27,548 bases of DNA. It comes from Neisseriales bacterium. GTDB lineage: Bacteria > Pseudomonadota > Gammaproteobacteria > Burkholderiales > UBA11063. The notes below the pieces were generated by a model. It was given only the letters and a program-made list of their open reading frames with translations. It was not told where the DNA came from and searched no databases. The stretch's first letter is position 1. Each line of letters begins with the position of its first letter. The stretch spans positions 1-27,548 of the forward strand of contig SSGY01000041.1 of the NCBI GenBank assembly GCA_008017145.1, read 5' to 3'. Both the position numbers and the translations under genes were made by a program. Below are positions 2,164 to 23,840 of the stretch, piece after piece.

Positions 2164-4281
2164 TTAAATTCGAACAACTTTGATTACAAAATCATTCTCG
2201 GCAATACTAGTCAAAAGATCATCAATTTCTTTAGAAGAGTGTGTGGTAATTGTTAAGCGTACCACAACTAATGCATGATTCTCGCGTCGTTCTTGGAAAA
2301 TCTCTTCCATATTAATTTGACGCTCTGCAATAATTGAGGAGAGTTTATTAAACGTACCAGGCAAATTATCAATTGTGATTGATACTTTGGCTAAAAACTC
2401 CATCTCATTATCGTTCAATATGGTGACAGTGGTTAATTTATCAAGACCAATTGCACGATTTTTTGCACAACTATCGCGATGTAGCTCTAATTCACCCTTG
2501 CGAGTTATCTTAGCTAAAATTATCTCGTCGGGTAACGGGCAACAAGCGTCGTCTTGAATTATTGGTAGATTGCAATTAGTGACTTTAATTGGTAATGGCT
2601 CATTTTCGGCAATGCCTAATAACTCTTTTACAACTTTAAGAACAGATATCTCATTAACTCCGATTTTTTGTTCAAAATCAGCAACACTCAGACGTTTGTA
2701 ATTGCGCTTGATTAGTACTTGGAGTGCTTCATCATCTGCAATAATCTCACTACCTGCCATGTGTAGTGCTAAGCCTAATAAGCGTACTCCATTGCTGATA
2801 TCCTCATCGTATTTCTGCTCTTTGAGGTACTGTTTTATTTTACTGATAGCCCGTCCACTAATTACATAACTTAGCCATTCTGGATCTGGTTCGCTTTCAA
2901 TAGTTGTCATGACTTCCACGACATCGCCATTTTGTAATGGATGATTGATCGCTGCTTGGCGTTGATTTACCCGAGCTTTATGGAAGTGATTACCAATGTC
3001 GGTATGAATAGTGTAGGCAAAATCCAGCGGCGTTGCACCTTGTGGTAAATGAATAATTTTCCCACGCGGAGTAAATACATAAATATTTTTAGGTGAAAGA
3101 TCTTTTTTGATACTTTCTAAAAATTCAGTTGCCGAGAATGTGCTCGATTGAATGTCAAGAATATTATTTAGCCAAGTAGATGCCTGAGTTTTTGCTTTGT
3201 TGTCGACGTTATCTGTTTGCTGTTTTAGCCAGTGGCTGATAATCCCTTGTTCGGCAATTTCTTCCATTTCACGGGTACGGATATGGATTTGAATTGGCGT
3301 TCCATTTGGTCCCATCATTGTTGAGTGCAAGGATTGATAGCCATTGCTCTTTGGAATTGCGATATAATCCTTAAATTTACCGGGTACTGGTTGATATAAA
3401 TTGTGGATTACCCCAAGAGTGAGATAACAGTTTCCGATAGTTTCAACTATTACTTTGACTTCAAAAATATCATAGATACGATCAAATGATTGCTGTCTTT
3501 TAAGCATTCGGCTATATAAGTTATGGATTGTGCGTTGGCGATATTTGAATTCACCCTTAATTCCGTTGGATTTAAGCGCTCCATCAATGTTGGACATAAG
3601 CCCCTGAATGATTGGTAGTCTATTTTGGTGGGCAACTTCTGCAGCAGCAGACAAAACTTGATAACGGTAAGGGTAGATGTATTTGAAACTTTCTTCAGCT
3701 AATTCCAAGTGAACCTTATGTAGCCCGATTTTATCGGCAATTGGTACATAAATTTCCATTGTTTCCAATGCAATGCGGCGCTGCTTATCTGGACGCATTG
3801 AACCTAGGGTTAGCATATTATGCATGCGATCAGCCAGTTTGATCAGAATAACACGAATATCCTTAGCCATTGCCAGAACTACTTTACGGAAATATTCTGC
3901 ATGTGCAGCTTCTTCAGATTCAAAGTGAAGCTTATCTAATTTGGTGACGCTGTCAACTAGCTCTGCTATACTTGGACCAAAAATACGCGTGAGTTCTTCT
4001 TTGGTAACCGGGGTATCTTCAATTACATCGTGCATCAGAGCGCCAGCAATGGTCTGCTCATCCAAGCCCCATTCGGCAATAAATGTTGCAACTTCAATCG
4101 GGTGAGTAATATAAGGTTCACCACTTTTGCGAAACTGCCCCAAGTGAGCGTGGTTAGCTACCTGAAATGCCAAGTCAATAGTTTCAATGGCTTTGCCATG
4201 CATATTTTGGCGAGCTGTTTGCAAAAGCCTACGGCGCAAAGTGTCAACTAGCGCTTGATATTCACCATGATTGATTTCCAT
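2164..4281 (-). CDS. spoT: SpoT-type (p)ppGpp hydrolase (RSH family), synthetase site probably inactive
   Basis: RelA/SpoT homologue of 705 residues, full length, that sets cytoplasmic alarmone levels. The HD hydrolase domain looks intact: H60, HDVIEDT at 84-90, and KLADRMHN with the usual Asp and Asn. The synthetase domain keeps Asp271 (DIFEVKV) and KFKDYIAIPKSNGYQSLHS (302-320). However, the catalytic Glu normally found in the P-[IV]-E-[IV]-Q-I-R-T strand is Gln (PIQIHIRT, codon caa), and the ATP-binding segment R-P-K-H-I-Y-S-I-Y reads RQRTIHNLY. TGS (IYVFTPRGKI) and C-terminal ACT domains follow. It is the third gene of gmk-rpoZ-spoT, the order known from E. coli. I call it SpoT rather than a bifunctional Rel; loss of synthesis is an inference from the substitutions. 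Confidence 0.95.
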   Translation of the reverse strand: MEINHGEYQALVDTLRRRLLQTARQNMHGKAIETIDLAFQVANHAHLGQFRKSGEPYITHPIEVATFIAEWGLDEQTIAGALMHDVIEDTPVTKEELTRIFGPSIAELVDSVTKLDKLHFESEEAAHAEYFRKVVLAMAKDIRVILIKLADRMHNMLTLGSMRPDKQRRIALETMEIYVPIADKIGLHKVHLELAEESFKYIYPYRYQVLSAAAEVAHQNRLPIIQGLMSNIDGALKSNGIKGEFKYRQRTIHNLYSRMLKRQQSFDRIYDIFEVKVIVETIGNCYLTLGVIHNLYQPVPGKFKDYIAIPKSNGYQSLHSTMMGPNGTPIQIHIRTREMEEIAEQGIISHWLKQQTDNVDNKAKTQASTWLNNILDIQSSTFSATEFLESIKKDLSPKNIYVFTPRGKIIHLPQGATPLDFAYTIHTDIGNHFHKARVNQRQAAINHPLQNGDVVEVMTTIESEPDPEWLSYVISGRAISKIKQYLKEQKYDEDISNGVRLLGLALHMAGSEIIADDEALQVLIKRNYKRLSVADFEQKIGVNEISVLKVVKELLGIAENEPLPIKVTNCNLPIIQDDACCPLPDEIILAKITRKGELELHRDSCAKNRAIGLDKLTTVTILNDNEMEFLAKVSITIDNLPGTFNKLSSIIAERQINMEEIFQERRENHALVVVRLTITTHSSKEIDDLLTSIAENDFVIKVVRI

Positions 4282-4303
4282 CCCTAAGTTCCCCCAAAAG
4301 GAT

Positions 4304-4510
4304 TTATTCCACGCGGTTTAAAATTTGACTATCGACTTTATGATCTGCAATTTCGCGTAGGGCTATAACTGTTGGTTTATCGCCCTCTTCATGTTCAACC
4401 ATTATGTCACTACCTTTTTCAATTTGGCGAGCTCTTAAGGCTGCGGCAATCGTCATGTCAAAGCGGTTTTCTATTTGTTCCATACAGTCAGCTACGGTAA
4501 AACGAGCCAT
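4304..4510 (-). CDS. rpoZ: RNA polymerase omega subunit
   Basis: A 68-residue protein beginning [19 protein letters not shown], the typical RpoZ N-terminus that contacts the beta' subunit and helps RNA polymerase assembly. The R-A-R-Q segment ([11 protein letters not shown]) and the acidic middle are also usual for the family. Omega forms part of one of the ppGpp binding sites on polymerase in E. coli, which suits its place directly before spoT. It starts 13 bases after the gmk stop and ends 22 bases before the spoT start, so the three genes are probably co-transcribed. It is a little shorter than E. coli omega (91 residues), in the range of shorter proteobacterial forms. Confidence 0.95.
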
Positions 4511-4523
4511 AGGTACATTCCTT

Positions 4524-5129
4524 TTAAAAGTTGAATTGGGTTTTTATTTGTTCCAGCATACGCACAGTTTTGTTTCGTGGTGCTCGGATTATACTACACA
4601 AATCTTGTAGTGCGGTTTCAAAGTTATCATTTACGATTAAGTAGTCAAATTCTGGAGCGTGACTAATATCACTCATTGCCAGAGATAAACGTTTTTCAAT
4701 TACTTCCTGAGAGTCAGTGTTGCGTGCGCTAAGCCGTTGTGCAAGCACTTCCAATGATGGCGGCAAGATAAATATCAAAACAGCATCATTAAACATTTTT
4801 CGAATTTGCTGGGCACCTTGCCAGTCTATTTCCAGTATGATGTCTTTTCCGGTAGCCAAAAATTTTTTAATTGTATTTATGTTGGTGCCATAATAATTAT
4901 CATAAACCTGAGCATACTCTAAAAACTCATTAGCTTCAATCATTGCCTTAAATGAATCAACAGTTACAAAAAAATAATTAACCCCGTCTGTTTCACCTGT
5001 TCGCATTGGGCGTGTTGTATGCGAAATAGATAATTGGACTTGTGGATCTATTTTACACAATGCATTGACTAAAGTTGATTTTCCTGCACCCGATGGTGCT
5101 GCAATTACGTATATTCTTCCGCGGTTCAT
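4524..5129 (-). CDS. gmk: Guanylate kinase
   Basis: Phosphorylates GMP to GDP with ATP in purine salvage. The protein has 201 residues, the normal length. The P-loop [10 protein letters not shown] is at about residues 11-20, followed by the GMP-binding stretch [19 protein letters not shown] and the lid region. The Asp of [15 protein letters not shown] and the R-x-x-x-R pattern (EKRLSLAM) fit the family. It is the first gene of gmk-rpoZ-spoT. The start at 5129 gives the standard N-terminus [14 protein letters not shown]. The ribosome binding site is weak. The gene is divergent from tatD across about 150 bases that must hold both promoters. Confidence 0.96.
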
Positions 5130-5196
5130 TAATCAGGTTTTATTCCTAAAAGTATATTTGAGGAGCGCCTTTGTTTGCTGGCGATTTAGTGTTTTG

Positions 5197-5205
5197 TGCT
5201 ACAAT
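5197..5205 (+). promoter_or_regulatory. Extended -10 promoter element for the TatD gene
   Basis: TGCTACAAT is an extended -10 (TGn plus TACAAT) lying 75 bases before the tatD start. No good -35 is seen at 17 bases. The same nonamer occurs before the first RiPP-like precursor (21528-21536). Confidence 0.4.
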
Positions 5206-5279
5206 TTCGGTTCATAAGTAAATCATAAGTAAGATTTACACTAATGGAACCTATTATTTTATCAGATTAAGGCATTAAA

Positions 5280-6059
5280 ATGTTAGTAGATTCACACTGT
5301 CATCTGAATTTTCCTGAATTGCAAGAGAATCTAAGTGATTATTTGCAGCAAATGGCAACTAATCAAGTTAGTCATGCACTGTGTATTGCCACCCGTCCAG
5401 ATAATATAGCTGATGTTATTAAGCTTGCAGAACTTTACCCTAATTTATACGCAAGTGCTGGAATTCATCCTGATGAAAAATTACCAGATTTTAAGCTAAG
5501 CAATGAGTATTTACTTGAGTTTACCAAAAATCCTCGCGTTATCGCAATTGGCGAAACTGGGTTAGATTATTATTGGAATAAAGATCAAGATATGAGCTGG
5601 CAGCATGAACGTTTCCAAACCCATATTGAAGTTGCTAAAGCTGCTAATTTACCCCTCGTAATTCATACTCGTGATGCTGCTGCAGATTGTCTTCAAATGT
5701 TAAAAGATGGTCAGGTAGAACTCTGTGGTGCAGTGATGCATTGTTTTACCGAAAATATTGACTGGGCGCGTAAATTTTTAGATTTGGGGTGTTATATTTC
5801 TATCTCGGGAATTGTTACTTTTAAAAGTGCGACAGTAGTACAAGAGGTTGCAAAATTTGTGCCGTTAGATCGTTTGCTAGTGGAGACTGATGCTCCATAT
5901 TTAGCACCTGTTCCTTTTAGGGGGAAATTAAATCATCCGGCATTAGTGCGACATACCGCGCAGTATATTGCTGATTTACGCCAGATTCAACTTGCTGAAT
6001 TGGCTTCAGCTACAAAGAGTAATTTTTTTATGCTGTTTAAAAAAGCGCGGCTGATTTAG
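5280..6059 (+). CDS. TatD-family metal-dependent deoxyribonuclease
   Basis: A 259-residue TIM-barrel metallohydrolase of the TatD/YcfH/YjjV family, cytoplasmic nucleases acting on DNA ends and possibly on other substrates. All metal ligands are visible: HxH in VDSHCHL near the N-terminus, Glu in AIGETGLDYYW, His in LVIHTRDA, His in VMHCFTEN, and Asp in VETDAPYLAP. The length is standard and AAGG precedes the ATG by eight bases. It stands divergent to gmk and upstream of a small secreted protein gene. The family has several paralogues per genome, so I give no symbol. YcfH-type is the likeliest subgroup. Confidence 0.93.
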   Translation: MLVDSHCHLNFPELQENLSDYLQQMATNQVSHALCIATRPDNIADVIKLAELYPNLYASAGIHPDEKLPDFKLSNEYLLEFTKNPRVIAIGETGLDYYWNKDQDMSWQHERFQTHIEVAKAANLPLVIHTRDAAADCLQMLKDGQVELCGAVMHCFTENIDWARKFLDLGCYISISGIVTFKSATVVQEVAKFVPLDRLLVETDAPYLAPVPFRGKLNHPALVRHTAQYIADLRQIQLAELASATKSNFFMLFKKARLI

Positions 6060-6078
6060 CTTGAGGAGTTTATAAAAA

Positions 6079-6111
6079 TTGATTTAATTTGTAATTAACT
6101 AAGTGTATAAT
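6079..6111 (+). promoter_or_regulatory. Promoter for the small secreted protein and cmk
   Basis: A perfect TATAAT lies at 6106-6111, 35 bases before the ATG at 6146. TTGATT at 6079-6084 is the nearest -35-like hexamer, but the spacer is 21 bases, longer than the usual 16-18. The element lies after the tatD stop, so the next two genes can be transcribed independently of tatD. Confidence 0.45.
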
Positions 6112-6145
6112 TCCGTCTTTGTTAACTTATTGAAAGAGTTTTATT

Positions 6146-6406
6146 ATGCGTAAATTATTATTAGTGCTTATTCCTTGTGGTTCTGTTTTTGCTGCTTCTC
6201 TAGATATGTCTACTTTGGCGTGTAAAAGTTTGAAAATTAATAGTGCGACAACTCTTAGTGACGTGCAAAATAATTGCGTGATTAAAAAACAAGAAACTTC
6301 AAAAGGTCTATATAAAGTTGAATTTACTAATGATACAACTAAGAAAGAAGTTACTTGTTCTTTCCCATCCAATGATCCTAAAGCCTTGTTAAATAGTTGT
6401 AAATAA
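6146..6406 (+). CDS. Small secreted four-cysteine protein, unknown function
   Basis: An 86-residue protein with a clear Sec signal peptide: MRKLL, a hydrophobic stretch, then VFA-A at about residues 15-18. The mature part of about 68 residues has four cysteines (in LACKS, NNCVI, VTCSF and NSCK), an even number that suggests two periplasmic disulfides. I do not recognise the family. It has its own -10 and ends ten bases before the cmk start, with no terminator between, so it is probably co-transcribed with cmk. Codon use resembles the neighbours. The signal peptide and spaced cysteines make a real gene likely. Confidence 0.75.
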   Translation: MRKLLLVLIPCGSVFAASLDMSTLACKSLKINSATTLSDVQNNCVIKKQETSKGLYKVEFTNDTTKKEVTCSFPSNDPKALLNSCK

Positions 6407-6415
6407 TACGCTGCT

Positions 6416-7072
6416 ATGAAAGTTATTACTATTGATGGCCCGGCATCCTCCGGAAAAGGAACTGTTGCCCGTGTAATTGCAGAACGTTTAGGCTTTCATT
6501 ATCTTGAATCTGGTGCAATTTATCGTGCGCTTGGCTTATGGATACATAAAAATCAGCTTGGAGACTCGCCAAGTATTGCTCAATTGCTTGAATTAGTTGA
6601 GAAGATGCGACTCGAATTTCATAGTGGCAAAATTTGGCTCAATTCCGAAGATGTCACGATGGATTTACGCGAAGAGTTTGTTGGAATGCTAGCATCGAAA
6701 TATAGCGCAATCGCCGAAGTTCGTGCTCGACTTTTACAGTTTCAGCGTGATTTTGCAGTTGCTCCGGGCTTAGTGACAGACGGGCGTGATATGGGGAGTG
6801 TGGTTTTCCCCGACGCTGATTTAAAGGTGTTTTTGACCGCGAGTGCTGAGAAAAGAGCAGAAAGACGTTATAAGCAGTTGCAGCAGTTTGATAAATCTGT
6901 TACAATTGGGGCTATTTTGCAGGATATTGTGGTACGTGATGAGCAAGACTCCAAACGGAGTGTAGCACCACTTAGCTATGATTCCTCGTTTAAAGTACTG
7001 GATAACTCAGAATTAGGGATTGATGAAACCATTGATTTAATCCTTAGTTGGTGGGGTGAACTTGGTAGATAA
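6416..7072 (+). CDS. cmk: Cytidylate kinase
   Basis: Phosphorylates CMP and dCMP to the diphosphates. The protein has 218 residues, the normal length for the proteobacterial enzyme. The P-loop IDGPASSGKGTVA is at residues 6-18, YLESGAIYRALG is the CMP-binding segment, TDGRDMGSVVFPDA is the characteristic Arg/Asp motif, and the lid and C-terminal segment include RDEQDSKRSVAPL. It lies directly upstream of rpsA and ihfB, the conserved cmk-rpsA-ihfB order. The Shine-Dalgarno is weak; translation may depend partly on coupling to the preceding small gene. Confidence 0.96.
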   Translation: MKVITIDGPASSGKGTVARVIAERLGFHYLESGAIYRALGLWIHKNQLGDSPSIAQLLELVEKMRLEFHSGKIWLNSEDVTMDLREEFVGMLASKYSAIAEVRARLLQFQRDFAVAPGLVTDGRDMGSVVFPDADLKVFLTASAEKRAERRYKQLQQFDKSVTIGAILQDIVVRDEQDSKRSVAPLSYDSSFKVLDNSELGIDETIDLILSWWGELGR

Positions 7073-10970: not shown

Positions 10971-10979
10971 TGATATAAT
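10971..10979 (+). promoter_or_regulatory. Extended -10 promoter for the E1-like operon
   Basis: TGATATAAT at 10971-10979 is a perfect extended -10. Transcription would start near 10986. This excludes the upstream in-frame ATG at 10978 as a start and supports the ATG at 11035. A TTGAAA at 10947-10952 sits 21 bases upstream of the hexamer. Confidence 0.6.
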
Positions 10980-11034
10980 GCCCCCATTATTTAAATATAC
11001 TATGCTTTTACTCTTATCTAAGGAAGGGTTTTCA

Positions 11035-11898
11035 ATGATTAATCAGCTCTCAATTGACGATTTTTATCAGGAAATGACTAAAAAAAATATTGGTGTATAT
11101 ACGGAAGAAGAACAAGCAAGATTACGTAATAGTAAGGTAATAATTTTTGGTCTGGGCGGCGTTGGCGGAATGGAGTCAATTTTATGTGCAAGAAGCGGGA
11201 TAGGACACATTAGTGGTGTTGATCCTGATATTTTTGAGTTATCGAATACTAATCGCCAGATGTTGGCAATGACTTCAACCATGAATGAATATAAGAGTGT
11301 TGCTGCTGAACGCCATTTGAAAGATATTAATCCATATTTGAGTACTAATTTTCAAAATGTCAGAGTAACGGAAGAAAATGTCTTTGAATTAATGCACGGG
11401 CATGATTTGGTGCTCGAAGCTCTTGATGACATGCCTTCGCGGATTGTAGTGCATCGTGCCGCTCGTAAACTTGGCATTCCCAGTATTTCAATGTCTGGTA
11501 GTCCACCACATCGCGGTTTCGTTTCGGCTTTTTTACCTGATGGCATCTCTTATGAAGAAGCGTTAAATATTCAAACTCAAGGTAAATCTATCTCTGATCC
11601 TGAAGTTACTCAATTTGTGCAAGAAATTAAGAAGAAACGTGCCCAGTTTTCGGTAACTAAAGGCGCACCTCAGTCGTGGGCTGATGATTTTTGTAGTGGC
11701 AAAGCTGGCTGGATAATTACACCAATTCGCGCAACTTTGATAGCCGCCTTTAGCTGTCATGAAGCGGTTCAGATATTAATTGGTCAAAAACCCCTAGCTG
11801 CAGCTCCTAAGGGCATATATATTGATATGGATAATTTAATTAATCCGGTATCAGTAATTAATCCTGAGTGTGGACACTGGGAAGCTTATCAAATCTAG
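11035..11898 (+). CDS. E1/ThiF-like adenylating enzyme, first of a pair
   Basis: A 287-residue member of the ThiF/MoeB/HesA superfamily, which adenylates a carboxyl end (often a peptide C-terminus). The nucleotide-binding motif GLGGVGG is at about 43-49, followed by the VDPDIFELSNTNRQ segment with the Arg that contacts ATP, YKSVAAERHLKDINP with the conserved Lys, and LEALDDMPSR where ThiF has D-x-x-D-N. The paired CxxC zinc motifs of MoeB/ThiF are absent, so a role in thiamin or molybdopterin synthesis is unlikely. AAGGAAGGG precedes the ATG at 11035; the longer frame starting at 10978 overlaps the -10 and is rejected. The second paralogue follows 17 bases later. Substrate unknown. Confidence 0.88.
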   Translation: MINQLSIDDFYQEMTKKNIGVYTEEEQARLRNSKVIIFGLGGVGGMESILCARSGIGHISGVDPDIFELSNTNRQMLAMTSTMNEYKSVAAERHLKDINPYLSTNFQNVRVTEENVFELMHGHDLVLEALDDMPSRIVVHRAARKLGIPSISMSGSPPHRGFVSAFLPDGISYEEALNIQTQGKSISDPEVTQFVQEIKKKRAQFSVTKGAPQSWADDFCSGKAGWIITPIRATLIAAFSCHEAVQILIGQKPLAAAPKGIYIDMDNLINPVSVINPECGHWEAYQI

Positions 11899-11915
11899 TT
11901 TTGAGGAAATATATA

Positions 11916-12761
11916 ATGAATAATTTATCACAAGAAATTTACGCACGTAATTATGGTGTAGTAACCCATGAAGAGCAACAAAAACTAACCAATGCCAAAG
12001 TTACTGTAATTGGTGCTGGTGGGGTTGGTGGTATTACATTAATTAGTTTAGCTCGGATGGGTTTTGGTAATATCCAAGTTGTTGATATGGATGAATTTGA
12101 TTATAGCAATATTAATCGTCAGATGCTATCTGGCATTTCTCGAGTTGGTAAAAGTAAAGCCGAATGTGCACGAGATACGATTCTGGATATAAATCCTGAT
12201 ATCAATGTAACGGTTAGAAAAGAGAAATTAATCGAAGCGAATGCCGAAGAAATTATCGCTGGATCAGATGTTGTTATTGATGGGACGGATAATTTAATTG
12301 CTCGGGTAATCATTCATCGTGCAGCGCAAAAATTAAAAGTGCCATCAGTGTGGATAGCGGTTACTCCGCCATTTAGAGGTGGAGTAATGACTTTTTCGCA
12401 CGAGACACCAGCTTATGAATTAGTATTGCGACATCCATCTTATGGTAAAGAGCTAACGCCTGAAGTGGTAAAAGAAGTTTCGGCAATTAAAGATGAGCGT
12501 GCGAGAGTATCAGTTGAACATGGTGCCTTGGCTGATTGGGCGGAAAATTATTTAAACAATAATGCACCTTGGGCAGTCATTTGCCCGGTAGCAAATATTG
12601 TCGGAATATGTGCTAGCTTTGAGGCGTTTAAAGTAATCCTTAAACGGAATGATTTGCAACCAACCTATGCACCAAATTTGGTTAAAATTGATTTGTCGCA
12701 AATCAATATGGTTCAAGTACAAACACCAGTGGACGGAAGTTGGAATAATGCAGAGCTATAA
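11916..12761 (+). CDS. E1/ThiF-like adenylating enzyme, second of a pair
   Basis: A 281-residue paralogue of the preceding protein, with the same order of motifs and visible similarity throughout (Y-G-V-x-T-H/E-E-E-Q, S-N-I/T-N-R-Q-M-L, D-I-N-P, R-A-A-x-K-L, P-P-x-R-G). It has GAGGVGG, VVDMDEFDYSNINRQ, GKSKAECARDTILDINP and DGTDNLIARVIIHRA, the last closer to the classical ThiF D-x-T-D-N motif than in its partner. No zinc CxxC pairs. The start at 11916 has GAGGAA eight bases upstream; the frame opens further upstream but overlaps the previous gene. Superfamily members can work as dimers, so the two may form a heterodimer; this is inference. Confidence 0.88.
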   Translation: MNNLSQEIYARNYGVVTHEEQQKLTNAKVTVIGAGGVGGITLISLARMGFGNIQVVDMDEFDYSNINRQMLSGISRVGKSKAECARDTILDINPDINVTVRKEKLIEANAEEIIAGSDVVIDGTDNLIARVIIHRAAQKLKVPSVWIAVTPPFRGGVMTFSHETPAYELVLRHPSYGKELTPEVVKEVSAIKDERARVSVEHGALADWAENYLNNNAPWAVICPVANIVGICASFEAFKVILKRNDLQPTYAPNLVKIDLSQINMVQVQTPVDGSWNNAEL

Positions 12762-20328: not shown

Positions 20329-21435
20329 TCATTGACAGCAACCACGTGCGTCAATTGTCCAGATATCAACTACATAATCATTTTCAGTAATATAGAAGTA
20401 GTCAAAGAGGTTAATCGTAGGGTCGCAATGAGCTATAACTAATTCAAGAACTTTTCCAAGAGCTGGCAAATTTCCACTAACTGCAGTGACTTTACCATGC
20501 TCATCACCAAAACCATCCCAATCATAATGAAGATTTTCGTGACTAATGATTCGCGGTTTAGTCGCAACTCTATAAAGCGCTTTAGTACCAGCATCAACTG
20601 TGACATGAGTTGGATGATTATTACTGATTACGGTTGTGAGCATTGTCATTGCTGGTAAAAATTGCTGTTCTTTATATTCAATATCGCTATACTCCTGATC
20701 CATAACACAATACGATCCAGGCTGAATTTCACTAACTGTGGTTAATTCGGCATCAAGACTAAAAGTTCCAGTACCGCTACCGGTTTGAATCTGACAATCA
20801 ATTCCTTGTGCTAATAACTGAGTTTTAATCTCACCCGCGGCTTGTAATATCTGATGTGAGAGCATACGTCGTTGCGCTAAATCACTGATATGTTGTAAAT
20901 GTCCAGCGTAGCATTGTATACCTTTAAGTTTTAAGTTGCTAAATTGGTTTATTCTATGTGCGCAATTTATCGCTTTATCCAAAGCAACTCCTGTGCGTCC
21001 GATTCCAGCATCAATATCCAGTAAGACATTTAGTGTTAAATTGCGCTCTTGGAAACCTTGGTTAAGTTTTGCGGCATTGTCAAGATTATCAACTACCAGC
21101 ATTGTATCTGGAGCTTGTCGAACAACGTCTGTTAGCTGATTGATTTTATTATCTGTTACAATAGGTGAAGTTATTAATATGCCGTTGATCCCCGCTTGTG
21201 CCATCACCTGTGCTTCGGAAAGCTTGGCAACACAGATGCCAATTGCTCCATATTCTAACTGGAGCTGGGCAATCTTGCTACATTTATGTGTTTTGGCATG
21301 CGGGCGAACGTTAACTCCCTTATCTTTGGCTAATTGCTGCATTAGCGATAAATTACTTAGCAATTTACTCTTGTCAATGACTAAGCATGGTGTAGGTAAC
21401 TGATTTTTGTGAAGCCCTAAGTATTTGTGTGGCAT
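20329..21435 (-). CDS. D-threonine aldolase / D-serine dehydratase family PLP enzyme
   Basis: A 368-residue cytoplasmic enzyme of the fold-type III (alanine-racemase-like N-terminal) metal-activated group that cleaves D-beta-hydroxy amino acids. PLP lysine in RPHAKTHK at residues 44-51 (probably K48), substrate/PLP segments LLDIDAGIGRTGV and GSGTGTFSLD, and the metal-site motif AHCDPTINLFD near the C-terminus (His and Cys). Family sequence alone does not settle aldolase versus dehydratase. AAGGA lies six bases before the ATG at 21435, so this start is preferred over the TTG/ATG-like extension to 21450. It is divergent from the first RiPP-like precursor gene; a link to it is possible but not shown. 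Confidence 0.88.
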   Translation of the reverse strand: MPHKYLGLHKNQLPTPCLVIDKSKLLSNLSLMQQLAKDKGVNVRPHAKTHKCSKIAQLQLEYGAIGICVAKLSEAQVMAQAGINGILITSPIVTDNKINQLTDVVRQAPDTMLVVDNLDNAAKLNQGFQERNLTLNVLLDIDAGIGRTGVALDKAINCAHRINQFSNLKLKGIQCYAGHLQHISDLAQRRMLSHQILQAAGEIKTQLLAQGIDCQIQTGSGTGTFSLDAELTTVSEIQPGSYCVMDQEYSDIEYKEQQFLPAMTMLTTVISNNHPTHVTVDAGTKALYRVATKPRIISHENLHYDWDGFGDEHGKVTAVSGNLPALGKVLELVIAHCDPTINLFDYFYITENDYVVDIWTIDARGCCQ

Positions 21436-21527
21436 AACAATCCTTCTCATTTTGATATTTCTCTATCTTCAGGCTTTATTGTACCGTAAAAAATGTTGCT
21501 ATGTATACAAGCTAAGAGACATTTATG

Positions 21528-21572: not shown

Positions 21573-21701
21573 ATGGAAAATAATAATTTAAATAAATTAG
21601 CATATCAAAAACCTGAATTAAAGTCATTCGATTTATCTGATTCTATCCAATCCGCAAATGGTGCTGGTGATGATGGCCTTGGTGGTGGACTTGGTAGTTA
21701 A
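21573..21701 (+). CDS. RiPP-like (lasso-type) precursor peptide 1
   Basis: A 42-codon gene. The leader contains K-L-A-Y-Q-K-P-E-L (residues 8-16), which fits the Y-x-x-P-x-L motif bound by lasso-peptide RRE proteins. Its first half matches precursor 2 (23712-23840) almost residue for residue, while the C-terminal parts differ, the pattern of leader versus core. Aligned to precursor 2, the core would be SANGAGDDGLGGGLGS, with Ser1 and Asp8 (or Ala1 and Asp7 if it begins one residue later). The usual Thr at -2 is Ile, and the tail is nearly all Gly, Leu and Ser, which would not plug a lasso ring well. It has its own extended -10 and converges on the cyclase-like gene. A non-threaded macrolactam or another RiPP is possible. 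Confidence 0.75.
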   Translation: MENNNLNKLAYQKPELKSFDLSDSIQSANGAGDDGLGGGLGS

Positions 21702-21804
21702 ATAAATCAAGCGTAAAAGTTGAGTAAATTTGATTTGATTATATCTGGCTAATAAATGACTGTTTATACTTGTAAATAAAATACATTTTTTAACGCATTT
21801 TAGC

Positions 21805-23598
21805 TTATTGGTCGAGATAACCAGCGAAAGATATGCAGCGTGATAAAACCATCAAGCGAGTTGTTATTTGATTATCTGGTTTGTCTGGGATTTGTGAATA
21901 CTCTTTAAAAAAGCCAAACATTTTATCTTTGTCAAAATATTTCCAAATTATTGATTGTGTCGCAGGTTTAAGGTTGTTTAACCTATCCAGCCATTCTTGG
22001 TGGTGAATATTGTAAGATAAGTAAAAATCCGACGCTTGCTCACCACGGTAGATACTCTCTGTAATAGTACTTGGTAAGATATCTTTTAAACCTTCGCGGA
22101 CTAATAGGCGACGATTTATCGTTTTGTTGTCTTTATAGAAAACCCACTGTGGTAGGCTATAACAAAATTCAGTCAGCTCTTTGTCAATTGTCGGATCAAG
22201 GTTTTTTGCTCCGTACCATAACTGGAGAGCATAAGCCGTTGATTTCAGTGCTGTTGGTGATTTAGTAAGCATATATGCTTGACTATCTGAAACAAATCCT
22301 CGGTTAAATATAATCTCTTGCCCGAGTTTGCTTGCTAAAAGATCTTGGTTTACATAGTCAAAGAAATTATTAAATACACTGCGGGGCTTCAGTTTTGATC
22401 TTAAGTAAGAGCGAATTTTACCGAGCTTATTGCGGAATGATTCGCCAGTCCATGAGATGGTTGAATTTCCTACTGCTCCAGTTAAGATAACTCTTGAGTT
22501 ATTTTTCGTCGCAAAATAATAGGAGCTAAGTATCCATTCGATATTAGCTACATTGCGGATTGGCTGGTCAATATATAAATTGAGTACATCCAATTCTCGA
22601 TAAATATCTTCGTCAACCTTAGAATAATGCTTGTGATGAATAATGTTGGGATACATCTTCAACACTGATTCGACAATTGGCATCTCATGATAGTACCAAT
22701 TTTTGCGATTGCTCGAACCTTCTAAGCCATTGGGGAGTGCCGTAAATGAATATAATTTTCTATTTTCTTTAGCAAGGATTATCGCCACTTGTGCACTTAC
22801 GGATGACGAATCCATTCCGCCACTGATCTGGCTACAGTTCTCATTGATATTTCTTAGGCATGAAGTTACTGCTTTACAGAATAATTTTCTAAATTCCTGA
22901 TAATATCCTTCACGACTCATCTTGGGTAATTTGGATTTTTTTAGTTCCCAATAACAATATTCTTTGCATTCTGTTTGATTGACAATTAAATAATGTCCAC
23001 CTTTAAGCCTAAAGACTTCTTGATAGCTAGTTTCAGTCATGGAAAAAGTATCCAAAGTTATTTCTAAGAAATGGCGTTCATTAATTGTAAGTTGCGAAGA
23101 TAGCTTTCTAAATGGTGAAAACTCATTGGCGCAAATAAACTGTTTGCCAGCTTCATAGCTATAATAAAGAGGATTATTACTGAATTGATCAACTGCAGCA
23201 AATAATTCATTTTTAATTGGATCATAAATAACAAAAGAAAAATATCCAGATAGGTAGTTTAAACAATCATAGCCGTATCTGCGATATGTGCTTAAGATTA
23301 GTTTGGCATCCGCAGTTGATTTATTTACGTCAAGCAACTCACACAAATAATCATGATTAGTCAGATAAACATCAGCATTTATCCAGATTTGGCTTTCTTG
23401 ATCCTGATAGGGCATTAAACAATCGGTGCATTGTGGAGTGATAAATCTTTGCGTTGCGGATAGACCAATTTTCTCATCATTAATGATGGCGTGATGATCT
23501 GGCTGCCAATGTGGTGTATCAAAAGTACATTCAGATAATTTGTTGTGATTACTTAAAGAAGTGTCACTTAAATTTAGGCGTGCGATTATTCTATTCAT
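21805..23598 (-). CDS. Asparagine-synthetase-like macrolactam synthetase (lasso cyclase-like)
   Basis: A 597-residue AsnB-family protein. The N-terminal glutaminase-like domain (about 1-200) is present, but residue 2 is Asn, so the Cys nucleophile needed for glutamine hydrolysis is missing; DQFSNNPLYYS and GYFSFVIYD are the remnants. The C-terminal ATP-PPase domain has SGGMDSSSV at 259-267, which adenylates a carboxylate. This combination and the length match lasso-peptide cyclases (the C protein), which activate Asp/Glu at position 7-9 for attack by the core N-terminus. It lies between two precursor-like genes and starts 113 bases from precursor 2, divergently. Beta-lactam synthetase-like or another amide-forming enzyme is an alternative. 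No B1/B2 partner is seen. Confidence 0.85.
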   Translation of the reverse strand: MNRIIARLNLSDTSLSNHNKLSECTFDTPHWQPDHHAIINDEKIGLSATQRFITPQCTDCLMPYQDQESQIWINADVYLTNHDYLCELLDVNKSTADAKLILSTYRRYGYDCLNYLSGYFSFVIYDPIKNELFAAVDQFSNNPLYYSYEAGKQFICANEFSPFRKLSSQLTINERHFLEITLDTFSMTETSYQEVFRLKGGHYLIVNQTECKEYCYWELKKSKLPKMSREGYYQEFRKLFCKAVTSCLRNINENCSQISGGMDSSSVSAQVAIILAKENRKLYSFTALPNGLEGSSNRKNWYYHEMPIVESVLKMYPNIIHHKHYSKVDEDIYRELDVLNLYIDQPIRNVANIEWILSSYYFATKNNSRVILTGAVGNSTISWTGESFRNKLGKIRSYLRSKLKPRSVFNNFFDYVNQDLLASKLGQEIIFNRGFVSDSQAYMLTKSPTALKSTAYALQLWYGAKNLDPTIDKELTEFCYSLPQWVFYKDNKTINRRLLVREGLKDILPSTITESIYRGEQASDFYLSYNIHHQEWLDRLNNLKPATQSIIWKYFDKDKMFGFFKEYSQIPDKPDNQITTRLMVLSRCISFAGYLDQ

Positions 23599-23669
23599 CG
23601 TTTATATTTTACTTATGGTTTATGGTGCTGAATTATAACAAAAAGTGATTCATTTAATTTATGATTTTA

Positions 23670-23678
23670 TGCTAAAAT
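23670..23678 (+). promoter_or_regulatory. Extended -10 promoter for precursor gene 2
   Basis: TGCTAAAAT lies 33 bases before the precursor 2 ATG, in the short gap that also serves the divergent cyclase-like gene. GGAG follows at 23700-23703 as the ribosome binding site. Confidence 0.5.
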
Positions 23679-23711
23679 GTGCCCCTGTTTAATTTTTTTG
23701 GAGTGGCTTAT

Positions 23712-23840
23712 ATGGAGAATACTAGCAATTTAGCTAAATTAGCGTATCAAAAACCTGAAATCGAACTACTCAATGCTGGTGATGTTACCTATGCTGAATC
23801 AGGAACACGTTCTGATGGTATTATCGACCAAGCTAGTTGA
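23712..23840 (+). CDS. RiPP-like (lasso-type) precursor peptide 2
   Basis: A 42-codon gene, the same length as precursor 1, with leader K-L-A-Y-Q-K-P-E-I (residues 9-17) fitting Y-x-x-P-x-[LI]. Thr26 lies at -2 relative to Ala28, as in most lasso precursors. The predicted core is AESGTRSDGIIDQAS, 15 residues, in which Ala1 and Asp8 could join as an eight-residue macrolactam with the tail GIIDQAS. The layout (T-x-Ala1, Ser at the C-terminus) resembles paeninodin, whose ring is Ala1-Asp9. GGAG stands nine bases before the ATG. The cyclase-like gene is divergent. The cut site and ring are predictions. Confidence 0.82.
   Translation: MENTSNLAKLAYQKPEIELLNAGDVTYAESGTRSDGIIDQAS

Follow-up and report, generated by a model that had tools for sequence, protein, structure and literature searches.

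A lasso-type cyclase between two precursor genes in a Neisseriales bacterium and a probable maturation hub encoded elsewhere

The 27,548-nucleotide contig SSGY01000041.1 of a Neisseriales bacterium (assembly GCA_008017145.1), analysed over its whole length and referred to here as the window, carries two 42-codon genes, P1 (21573..21701) and P2 (23712..23840), on either side of a gene for an AsnB-like protein (21805..23598). A preliminary description had taken P1 and P2 for leader/core genes of a lasso-type ribosomally synthesized and post-translationally modified peptide (RiPP) and the protein between them for a lasso cyclase. The question raised by this locus is how its products could mature, as the window open reading frames (ORFs) scanned, including those in the 20.3 kb before P1, held no protein like the leader-binding B1 or the protease B2, and no kinase was found in the window. 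The preliminary description did not mention this absence; relatives keep both B1 and B2 elsewhere. We propose, with a probability of roughly 0.7, that the locus belongs to a phospho-lasso system resembling those of paeninodin and bsf. In the lineage of the window, a single maturation hub would then serve, in trans, a number of scattered precursors, which retain cyclases of their own.

Both small genes were present as described before and share the leader stretch K-L-A-Y-Q-K-P-E-[LI]. P1 encodes 42 aa (MENNNLNKLAYQKPELKSFDLSDSIQ / SANGAGDDGLGGGLGS), has a homologue at the matching position of locus L002 in a relative and belongs to the profile family described below, while P2, also of 42 aa (MENTSNLAKLAYQKPEIELLNAGDVTY / AESGTRSDGIIDQAS), has the close homologues P0107, P0112 and P0114. 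The two genes had been said to lie in different orientations. Both are on the plus strand, and the statement holds only relative to the minus-strand cyclase gene, to which P1 is convergent and P2 divergent. Codons 11-16 of P1 (21603..21620, plus strand; leader positions -16 to -11) form a YxxPxL motif, the putative site for B1, which carries a RiPP recognition element (RRE), and codons 12-17 of P2 (23745..23762, plus strand) align with it as a YxxPxI motif. Work on other systems points to such a binding role (PMC10368454; PMC13381572). The Tyr and Pro of the motif were invariant in two alignments of precursors (9/9 and 17/17). The predicted P1 core would comprise 16 aa (21651..21698, plus strand), with Ile at -2, acids at 7 and 8 and a C-terminal Ser, and the predicted P2 core 15 aa (23793..23837, plus strand), with Thr at -2, Asp8 and a C-terminal Ser. 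Counted from these putative cleavage sites, the P1 positions are Y(-16), P(-13), L(-11), I(-2), D7 and D8, and those of P2 are Y, P, I(-11), T(-2) and D8.

This spacing is shared by a small family. An alignment of nine precursors, drawn from the window and from loci of relatives, supplied the rows for a profile search of 5.8 billion proteins, which at E up to 10 returned 20 proteins, namely 6 of the query rows and 14 others. A 17-row profile at E up to 1 returned 24 proteins, and by eye the 14 new ones conform to this layout. Rows were selected by hand and placed by Tyr-Pro, and the -2 and core positions were assigned by counting 16 residues from the leader Tyr, such that neither the acid nor the -2 residue nor the terminal Ser played a part in row placement. 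Thr, Ile or Val was found at -2 in all 15 precursors of the window and loci and in 28/28 when 13 metagenome proteins were added; the same counts were obtained for Asp or Glu at core positions 7-9 (15/15 and 28/28), and a C-terminal Ser was found in 14/15 and 26/28, respectively. The exact spacing from Y(-16) to -2 was thus kept in every scored homologue. It should be noted that chance can also place an acid at 7-9, because the nonsense core of P0113 still scores an acid at 9. P0113, from another assembly, is a frame-shifted copy of the L002-type P0106; the shift lies before the core and may stem from decay, phase variation or an error in sequencing. When the fetched loci and the window, 662,318 bases in all, were scanned for the motif in six frames, 22 distinct matches were obtained against a mean of 9.2 in five shuffles, and 17 against 1.2 when a C-terminal Ser was also demanded; because most of these loci were fetched for holding precursors and some overlap, these numbers speak to the specificity of the motif and not to its frequency in genomes. 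P1 and P2 were the only matches within the window.

Judged by their sequences, P1 and P2 are two different precursor types. A near-identical P1 core lies at the matching place of L002 (1234-1356, minus strand), where the stretch ANGAGDDGLGGGL is the same in P1 and L002 apart from synonymous changes, and the P1-type core recurs more distantly, behind quite different leaders, in P0108, P0110, P0111 and genome G202 (SNANSGDDGLGFFSGS). The P2-type peptides P0107, P0112 and P0114 have a constant leader and a variable core. The -2 residue is mostly Ile or Val in P1-type leaders and Thr in P2-type leaders. Several candidates were discarded: a motif match in L037 (3861-4022, minus strand) was taken as chance, a match on contig C83 of G211 (E 0.0017) was dropped for its Ala at -2 and lack of an acid at 7-9, and weak profile matches inside long frames (G206, G203, G204, contig C1 of G205, and G212) were excluded as precursors. 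Stops mark L091 as a relic, and the P2-type copy in L003 is interrupted.

The protein encoded between P1 and P2 (597 aa, minus strand) has GATase_7 and Asn_synthase domains. As the preliminary description had observed, it lacks the glutaminase Cys, with MNRIIA at its start and hence Asn in place of Cys2, while the ATP-binding SGGMDSSSV is intact. It could in principle be an unrelated amidotransferase-like ligase next to small ORFs that arose by chance or serve another purpose. Its remoteness fits such a view, in that no match was obtained in a PDB sequence search at 1e-5, and the comparison with a lasso cyclase model, proposed in the preliminary description, gave a mixed outcome. NF033535 matched at E 4.1e-59 with 200.8 bits, below its curated cut-off of 525. 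That cut-off does not separate proteins within the family of the nearest relative, because 0/23 genomes reach it, and the model also matches true asparagine synthetases in 6 of 14 control genomes, including E. coli. NF033535 was therefore rejected as a discriminator and, as its match decides nothing alone, a tree of 28 proteins was built. All eight true synthetases in the tree carry Cys2 and lie on one side of a branch with support 99/98, whereas the window protein lies on the other, where it groups with P0014, P0022, P0043, P0056 and P0061 (100/100). Its next partner is the B2-linked cyclase of G513 (96/96), on a long branch whose placement is unsure; in this tree G201 bears a B2-linked label by inference, although B2 is on a different contig there. 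Small genes, moreover, recur beside cyclase homologues. Neither grouping with true synthetases nor homologous loci devoid of the small genes, the two outcomes named beforehand as speaking against a lasso assignment, was thus encountered. The unrelated-ligase explanation is already contradicted by these results and we consider it highly improbable, and it is well supported by sequence comparison that P1 and P2 are lasso-peptide precursors with a lasso-type cyclase between them.

Three cyclase lineages were recognized in the family: the window type (window and contig C53 of G001), a second with members on C33 of G001 and C71 of G202, and a hub type in G202, G205, G211, G201 and on C10 of G002. 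Homologues of the cyclase were found among proteins named from a Neisseriales bin, a Chlamydiae bin and Legionella pneumophila, and viral contigs searched with cyclase patterns gave no match. Second AsnB-like matches in the family were set aside as true synthetases with MCG at or near the start. Among the proteins read, and with no search made with every cyclase lineage as query, Cys-less AsnB-like proteins occurred only in B2-positive genomes. In B2-negative genomes every start read was MCG; two proteins (L070, L065) were truncated by contig ends and one (G217) had no visible start. In G001 (L001) the window-type cyclase lies beside ProS and a transglycosylase, and it has another location in the window and bin AWTP1-26; because of this difference the cyclase island seems mobile. 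Both L002 (1-90) and L003 (8825-8917) of bin AWTP1-26 end inside a window-type cyclase. P0001 and P0009 share 96% and 77% identity with the window protein and both list a 69457-base longest contig, and may be two cyclase copies close together.

Where, then, are the missing maturation genes? GTDB contigs yielded three related loci in two bins, L001 in G001 and L002 and L003 in G002. A PF13471 search found one B2 in each of G001 and G002, and single copies in 6 of the 23 genomes in the family of the nearest relative. B2 adjoins B1 or a kinase in five of these six, and PqqD (PF05402), sought in 12 of the 23 genomes, was present in all six B2-positive genomes (two copies in G211) and in 0/6 B2-negative ones. 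The hub of G001 (L006; C4:2044-6695) follows methyltransferase and sulfate-activation genes and consists of B2 (2044-2520), a kinase (2504-3385), B1 (3404-3691), a nucleotidyltransferase (3692-4849) and an ATP-binding cassette (ABC) transporter (4998-6695); no cyclase or precursor match was found on C4, which is 112.9 kb long. B2 matched NF033537 with 75.7 bits (cut-off 33), and PF05402, PF07475 and PF14907 were also above cut-off, PF07475 with 39 bits for the kinase (cut-off 33.3). Kinases were recognized by eye in the hubs of G002, G201, G202 and G205, and the hub kinases, again by eye, show the residues H-K-D-D given as conserved in such enzymes (PMC9266682). Against the PDB, the hub B1 matched the lasso RRE TbiB1 (5v1u) at 3.7e-8 as well as another lasso PqqD chaperone, while a sequence search with B2 gave no match at 0.01.

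In G001 the window-type cyclase (C53:23240-25030) lies on a 59.2-kb contig, more than 23 kb from either end, next to a precursor with the core FNNGGNSDSMAFES, and the sole B2 and sole PqqD match of the genome are both on C4. Single precursors occur on C39 (at 86.4 of 120.6 kb) and C23 (at 24.2 of 95.3 kb); two further sites are near contig ends, namely another cyclase with its precursor on C33 and a lone precursor on C38. In G002, a single precursor lies on C1 (at 99.4 of 305.3 kb), the hub at the end of C2, and a hub-type cyclase, with no motif precursor nearby, on C10 (at 70.0 of 84.0 kb), while the window-type cyclase and a P1-type precursor are at contig ends; two degraded precursor copies with stops are also present. 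That the layout is non-standard, as claimed before, is upheld, although what sets it apart is the lack of linkage to the maturation genes, more than the precursors on both sides of the cyclase.

An ordinary linked lasso cluster, with B1 and B2 just outside the window or an island split by assembly and nothing acting in trans, is a much less likely explanation. The window ends only 3.9 kb past the cyclase start on one side, and linked clusters do exist, in G211 and, in the class sample described below, in G352, G442 and G513. Such a cluster is at odds with the 20.3 kb before P1 that lack B1 and B2, with the more than 23 kb of contig on each side of the G001 cyclase and with the sole B2 and PqqD match on C4. 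It also accords poorly with G295 and G084, in which cyclase and B2 are on different contigs, several kb or more from the ends; the two genes are on different contigs in G447 as well, although there B2 is near a contig end.

Several observations weigh against a hub in trans. In G211, the precursor, cyclase, B2, ABC transporter, nucleotidyltransferase and B1 are all on one 8.7-kb contig and form a linked cluster; no kinase was seen on this contig, though the G211 precursor ends in Ser. In G201, the precursor, an RCC1 lipoprotein, the cyclase, the kinase and B1 are on C98, with B2, ABC transporter and nucleotidyltransferase on C24, and these genes are probably one cluster. The same is probable for G205, where hub and cyclase are on C167, which starts in RCC1 repeats, and the precursor and an RCC1 lipoprotein are on the short contig C253. 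It is possible for G202, where hub and cyclase are on C107, which ends in Kelch repeats, and C71 holds three precursors, another cyclase and a Kelch lipoprotein gene truncated by the contig end. The gaps in these three genomes are at or near contig ends, and all three sets may be ordinary clusters. In G202 and G205 the gaps fall inside repeat-rich lipoprotein genes, and as contigs of these two genomes end in the same repeat kinds (Kelch, RCC1) that border their hub contigs, their clusters may be whole. With linkage shown or plausible across contig breaks in the other four B2-positive genomes, it is G001 and G002, the two nearest relatives, that carry the case for a trans arrangement. In addition, all six hub assemblies of the family are fragmented and could contain misbinned contigs, the hub of the window's own genome is assumed by analogy with its relatives, the hub B1 scored below the NF033536 cut-off (63.6 against 80) just as the window cyclase did for NF033535, the P1 tail (GLGGGLGS) has no bulky plug, and the L002 precursor ends in Phe.

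That tail, together with stand-alone precursors lacking a nearby cyclase, would also suit an island that makes cyclised but unthreaded peptides or linear phosphopeptides in the manner of the linear polyphosphorylated peptides (LPP), the stand-alone precursors being of that kind; LPP clusters have a kinase, an RRE and a nucleotidyltransferase in common with paeninodin-type lassos, and a YxxP leader (PMC13381572). The acid at 7-9 in every scored core, the Thr, Ile or Val at -2, the cyclase between P1 and P2, and a hub protease that belongs to the lasso B2 family (NF033537, above cut-off) and not to the signal-peptidase type make this improbable.

With the phospho-lasso system and its hub in trans as the preferred reading, maturation can be sketched. 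Gene anatomy, motif spacing, homologous loci and the unlinked B1, B2 and kinase genes of G001 and G002 were observed directly, and every chemical step is modelled on paeninodin, pseudomycoidin and bsf (PMC9266682; PMC8498205; PMC10368454). The PqqD-like RRE protein B1 from the distant hub operon would bind the YxxPx[LI] leader motif, the HPr-kinase-like enzyme of the hub would phosphorylate the C-terminal Ser, B2 would cleave after leader residue -1 and the local cyclase would join the new N-terminus to Asp8 in P2 or to Asp7 or Asp8 in P1. The hub nucleotidyltransferase-like protein may then decorate the phosphate, before the product would be exported by the hub ABC transporter. One B1/B2 pair would serve all precursors of a genome, while cyclases would remain with their own precursors. 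Because the P1 tail is poor in bulky residues, we speculate that a phosphate or hexose on Ser16 might be its plug. Ile(-2) has been validated in the kinase-bearing bsf system (PMC10368454). An actinobacterial, non-Bacillota lasso RRE bound non-cognate leaders about equally well (PMC13381572), which makes the sharing of one B1 plausible.

A bolder proposal, that a single hub of B1, B2, kinase, nucleotidyltransferase and exporter acts in trans on precursors spread along the chromosome, of which some come with a cyclase from one of at least three lineages and others are single and paired with members of a lipoprotein family, stands in our view at even odds. Its logic would resemble that of the prochlorosins, lanthipeptides for which one ring-making modifying enzyme serves precursors scattered over the genome, except that the shared parts here would be leader binding and removal and not ring formation. 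In favour of the preferred reading, the precursor profile A3 matched all six B2-positive genomes at E 8e-5 or better and none of the 17 B2-negative genomes below 0.03, four of the latter having matches at 0.033 to 0.605; the precursor match of G201 is a row of neither profile. An earlier profile, A1, found single precursors that were not among its rows (5.8e-10 and 1.1e-4). To be set against this, three accepted precursors were weak in A1 (0.039, 0.066 and 0.32) and were accepted on their motif, B2-negative genomes reached 0.097, and the profile tests are partly circular because most rows come from B2-positive genomes.

When cyclases were sampled more widely, 3 of 200 genomes of the order, G001 and G002 among them, matched at 1e-20, and 6 of 369 genomes of the class at 1e-30. 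Of six lasso cyclases outside the family, those of G352, G442 and G513 have B2 at most a few kb away, whereas G295, G084 and G447 carry it on a separate contig. Because of the latter three, unlinked B2 genes may recur in kinase-bearing lasso systems. The kinase-bearing lasso genes are at L110 (2850-5552) and L109 (5944-7848) in G295, and at L111 (2299-6242) and L112 (4015-7610) in G084.

The closest described system is bsf of Bradymonas sediminis, which has the kinase K, the nucleotidyltransferase N, separate B1 and B2, an ABC transporter, YxxPxL and, like P1, Ile at -2. Its seven genes form one 7.2-kb cluster, in contrast to the unlinked genes of G001 and G002, and BsfK phosphorylates Ser3 of a precursor, BsfA, that ends in Asp, whereas 14 of the 15 precursors here end in Ser (PMC10368454). 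The phospho-lassos paeninodin, ThcoA/SyanA and pseudomycoidin share the kinase, the C-terminal Ser and the nucleotidyltransferase-like protein, which in pseudomycoidin adds hexoses, and SyanA is proteobacterial (PMC9266682; PMC8498205). They are, however, described as clusters, and paeninodin leaders have WxxP instead of YxxP (PMC13381572). In the citrulassin pathway an enzyme (PAD) is likewise encoded far from the cluster (PMC9266682; PMC12971885), but there it is one distant tailoring enzyme and here the class-defining B1 and B2. LPP resembles the system in its RRE, kinase, nucleotidyltransferase, YxxP leader and lack of a cyclase near some precursors, and differs as a pathway without a cyclase and with a signal-peptidase-type protease (PMC13381572). 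No description of lasso B1/B2 encoded away from the cyclase was found in the literature searched, which mostly lay outside subscription journals. As far as these sources go, the known relatives are clusters, and split B1/B2 genes would be unusual among lasso systems.

Lasso genome mining expects adjacent A, B and C genes, and would miss islands in which a cyclase stands without B1/B2, as well as lone precursors far from any enzyme gene. If one hub does serve many precursors, its B1/B2 must accept varied cores and varied leaders (Thr, Ile or Val at -2). Such tolerance would help in building lasso libraries, and it would become testable whether core specificity is set by the cyclase or by B1/B2.

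The recurrent pairing of one precursor type with a family of lipoproteins offers a concrete clue to function. Eight precursors have an ES acid-Ser core, GGGxxxxESQGGG..S or similar (L035, L040a, L088, L090, L092, L093, L095 and L106), and five of them adjoin a secreted protein or lipoprotein gene (L106 298-3318; L088 1727-2876; L102 6614-7834; L040 1-770; L035 667-1908). The N-terminal parts of these proteins, about 200 aa, are homologous (pairwise E 7e-94 to 0.004), and their C-termini vary (RCC1, Kelch or other). A sixth pairing, in L092, is weak and its reading interrupted; the L095 precursor is beside an unrelated PLD-type lipoprotein, and none was seen beside L093.

Upstream of P1, an intergenic stretch, CAGG-TTTATTGTACCGTAAAA (21470..21491, plus strand), is conserved in the alignment with L002 and lies 5' of both P1 and the divergent BhcC-like gene at 20329-21450, for which it may be a shared control region or operator. 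A consensus promoter scan was uninformative (16 sites against 12.8 in shuffles), and a terminator scan was also at shuffle level. The remaining window genes encode Lon, RelA/SpoT, guanylate kinase, TatD, cytidylate kinase, ribosomal S1, HU, a pilin, a rhodanese, two ThiF proteins, a hydrolase and HMGL-like, MFS, TetR, SDR, BhcC-like and LysR proteins, along with two proteins without a Pfam match. The two ThiF-family genes (10978-12761, plus strand) overlap by about 30 bases and are followed by an alpha/beta hydrolase frame.

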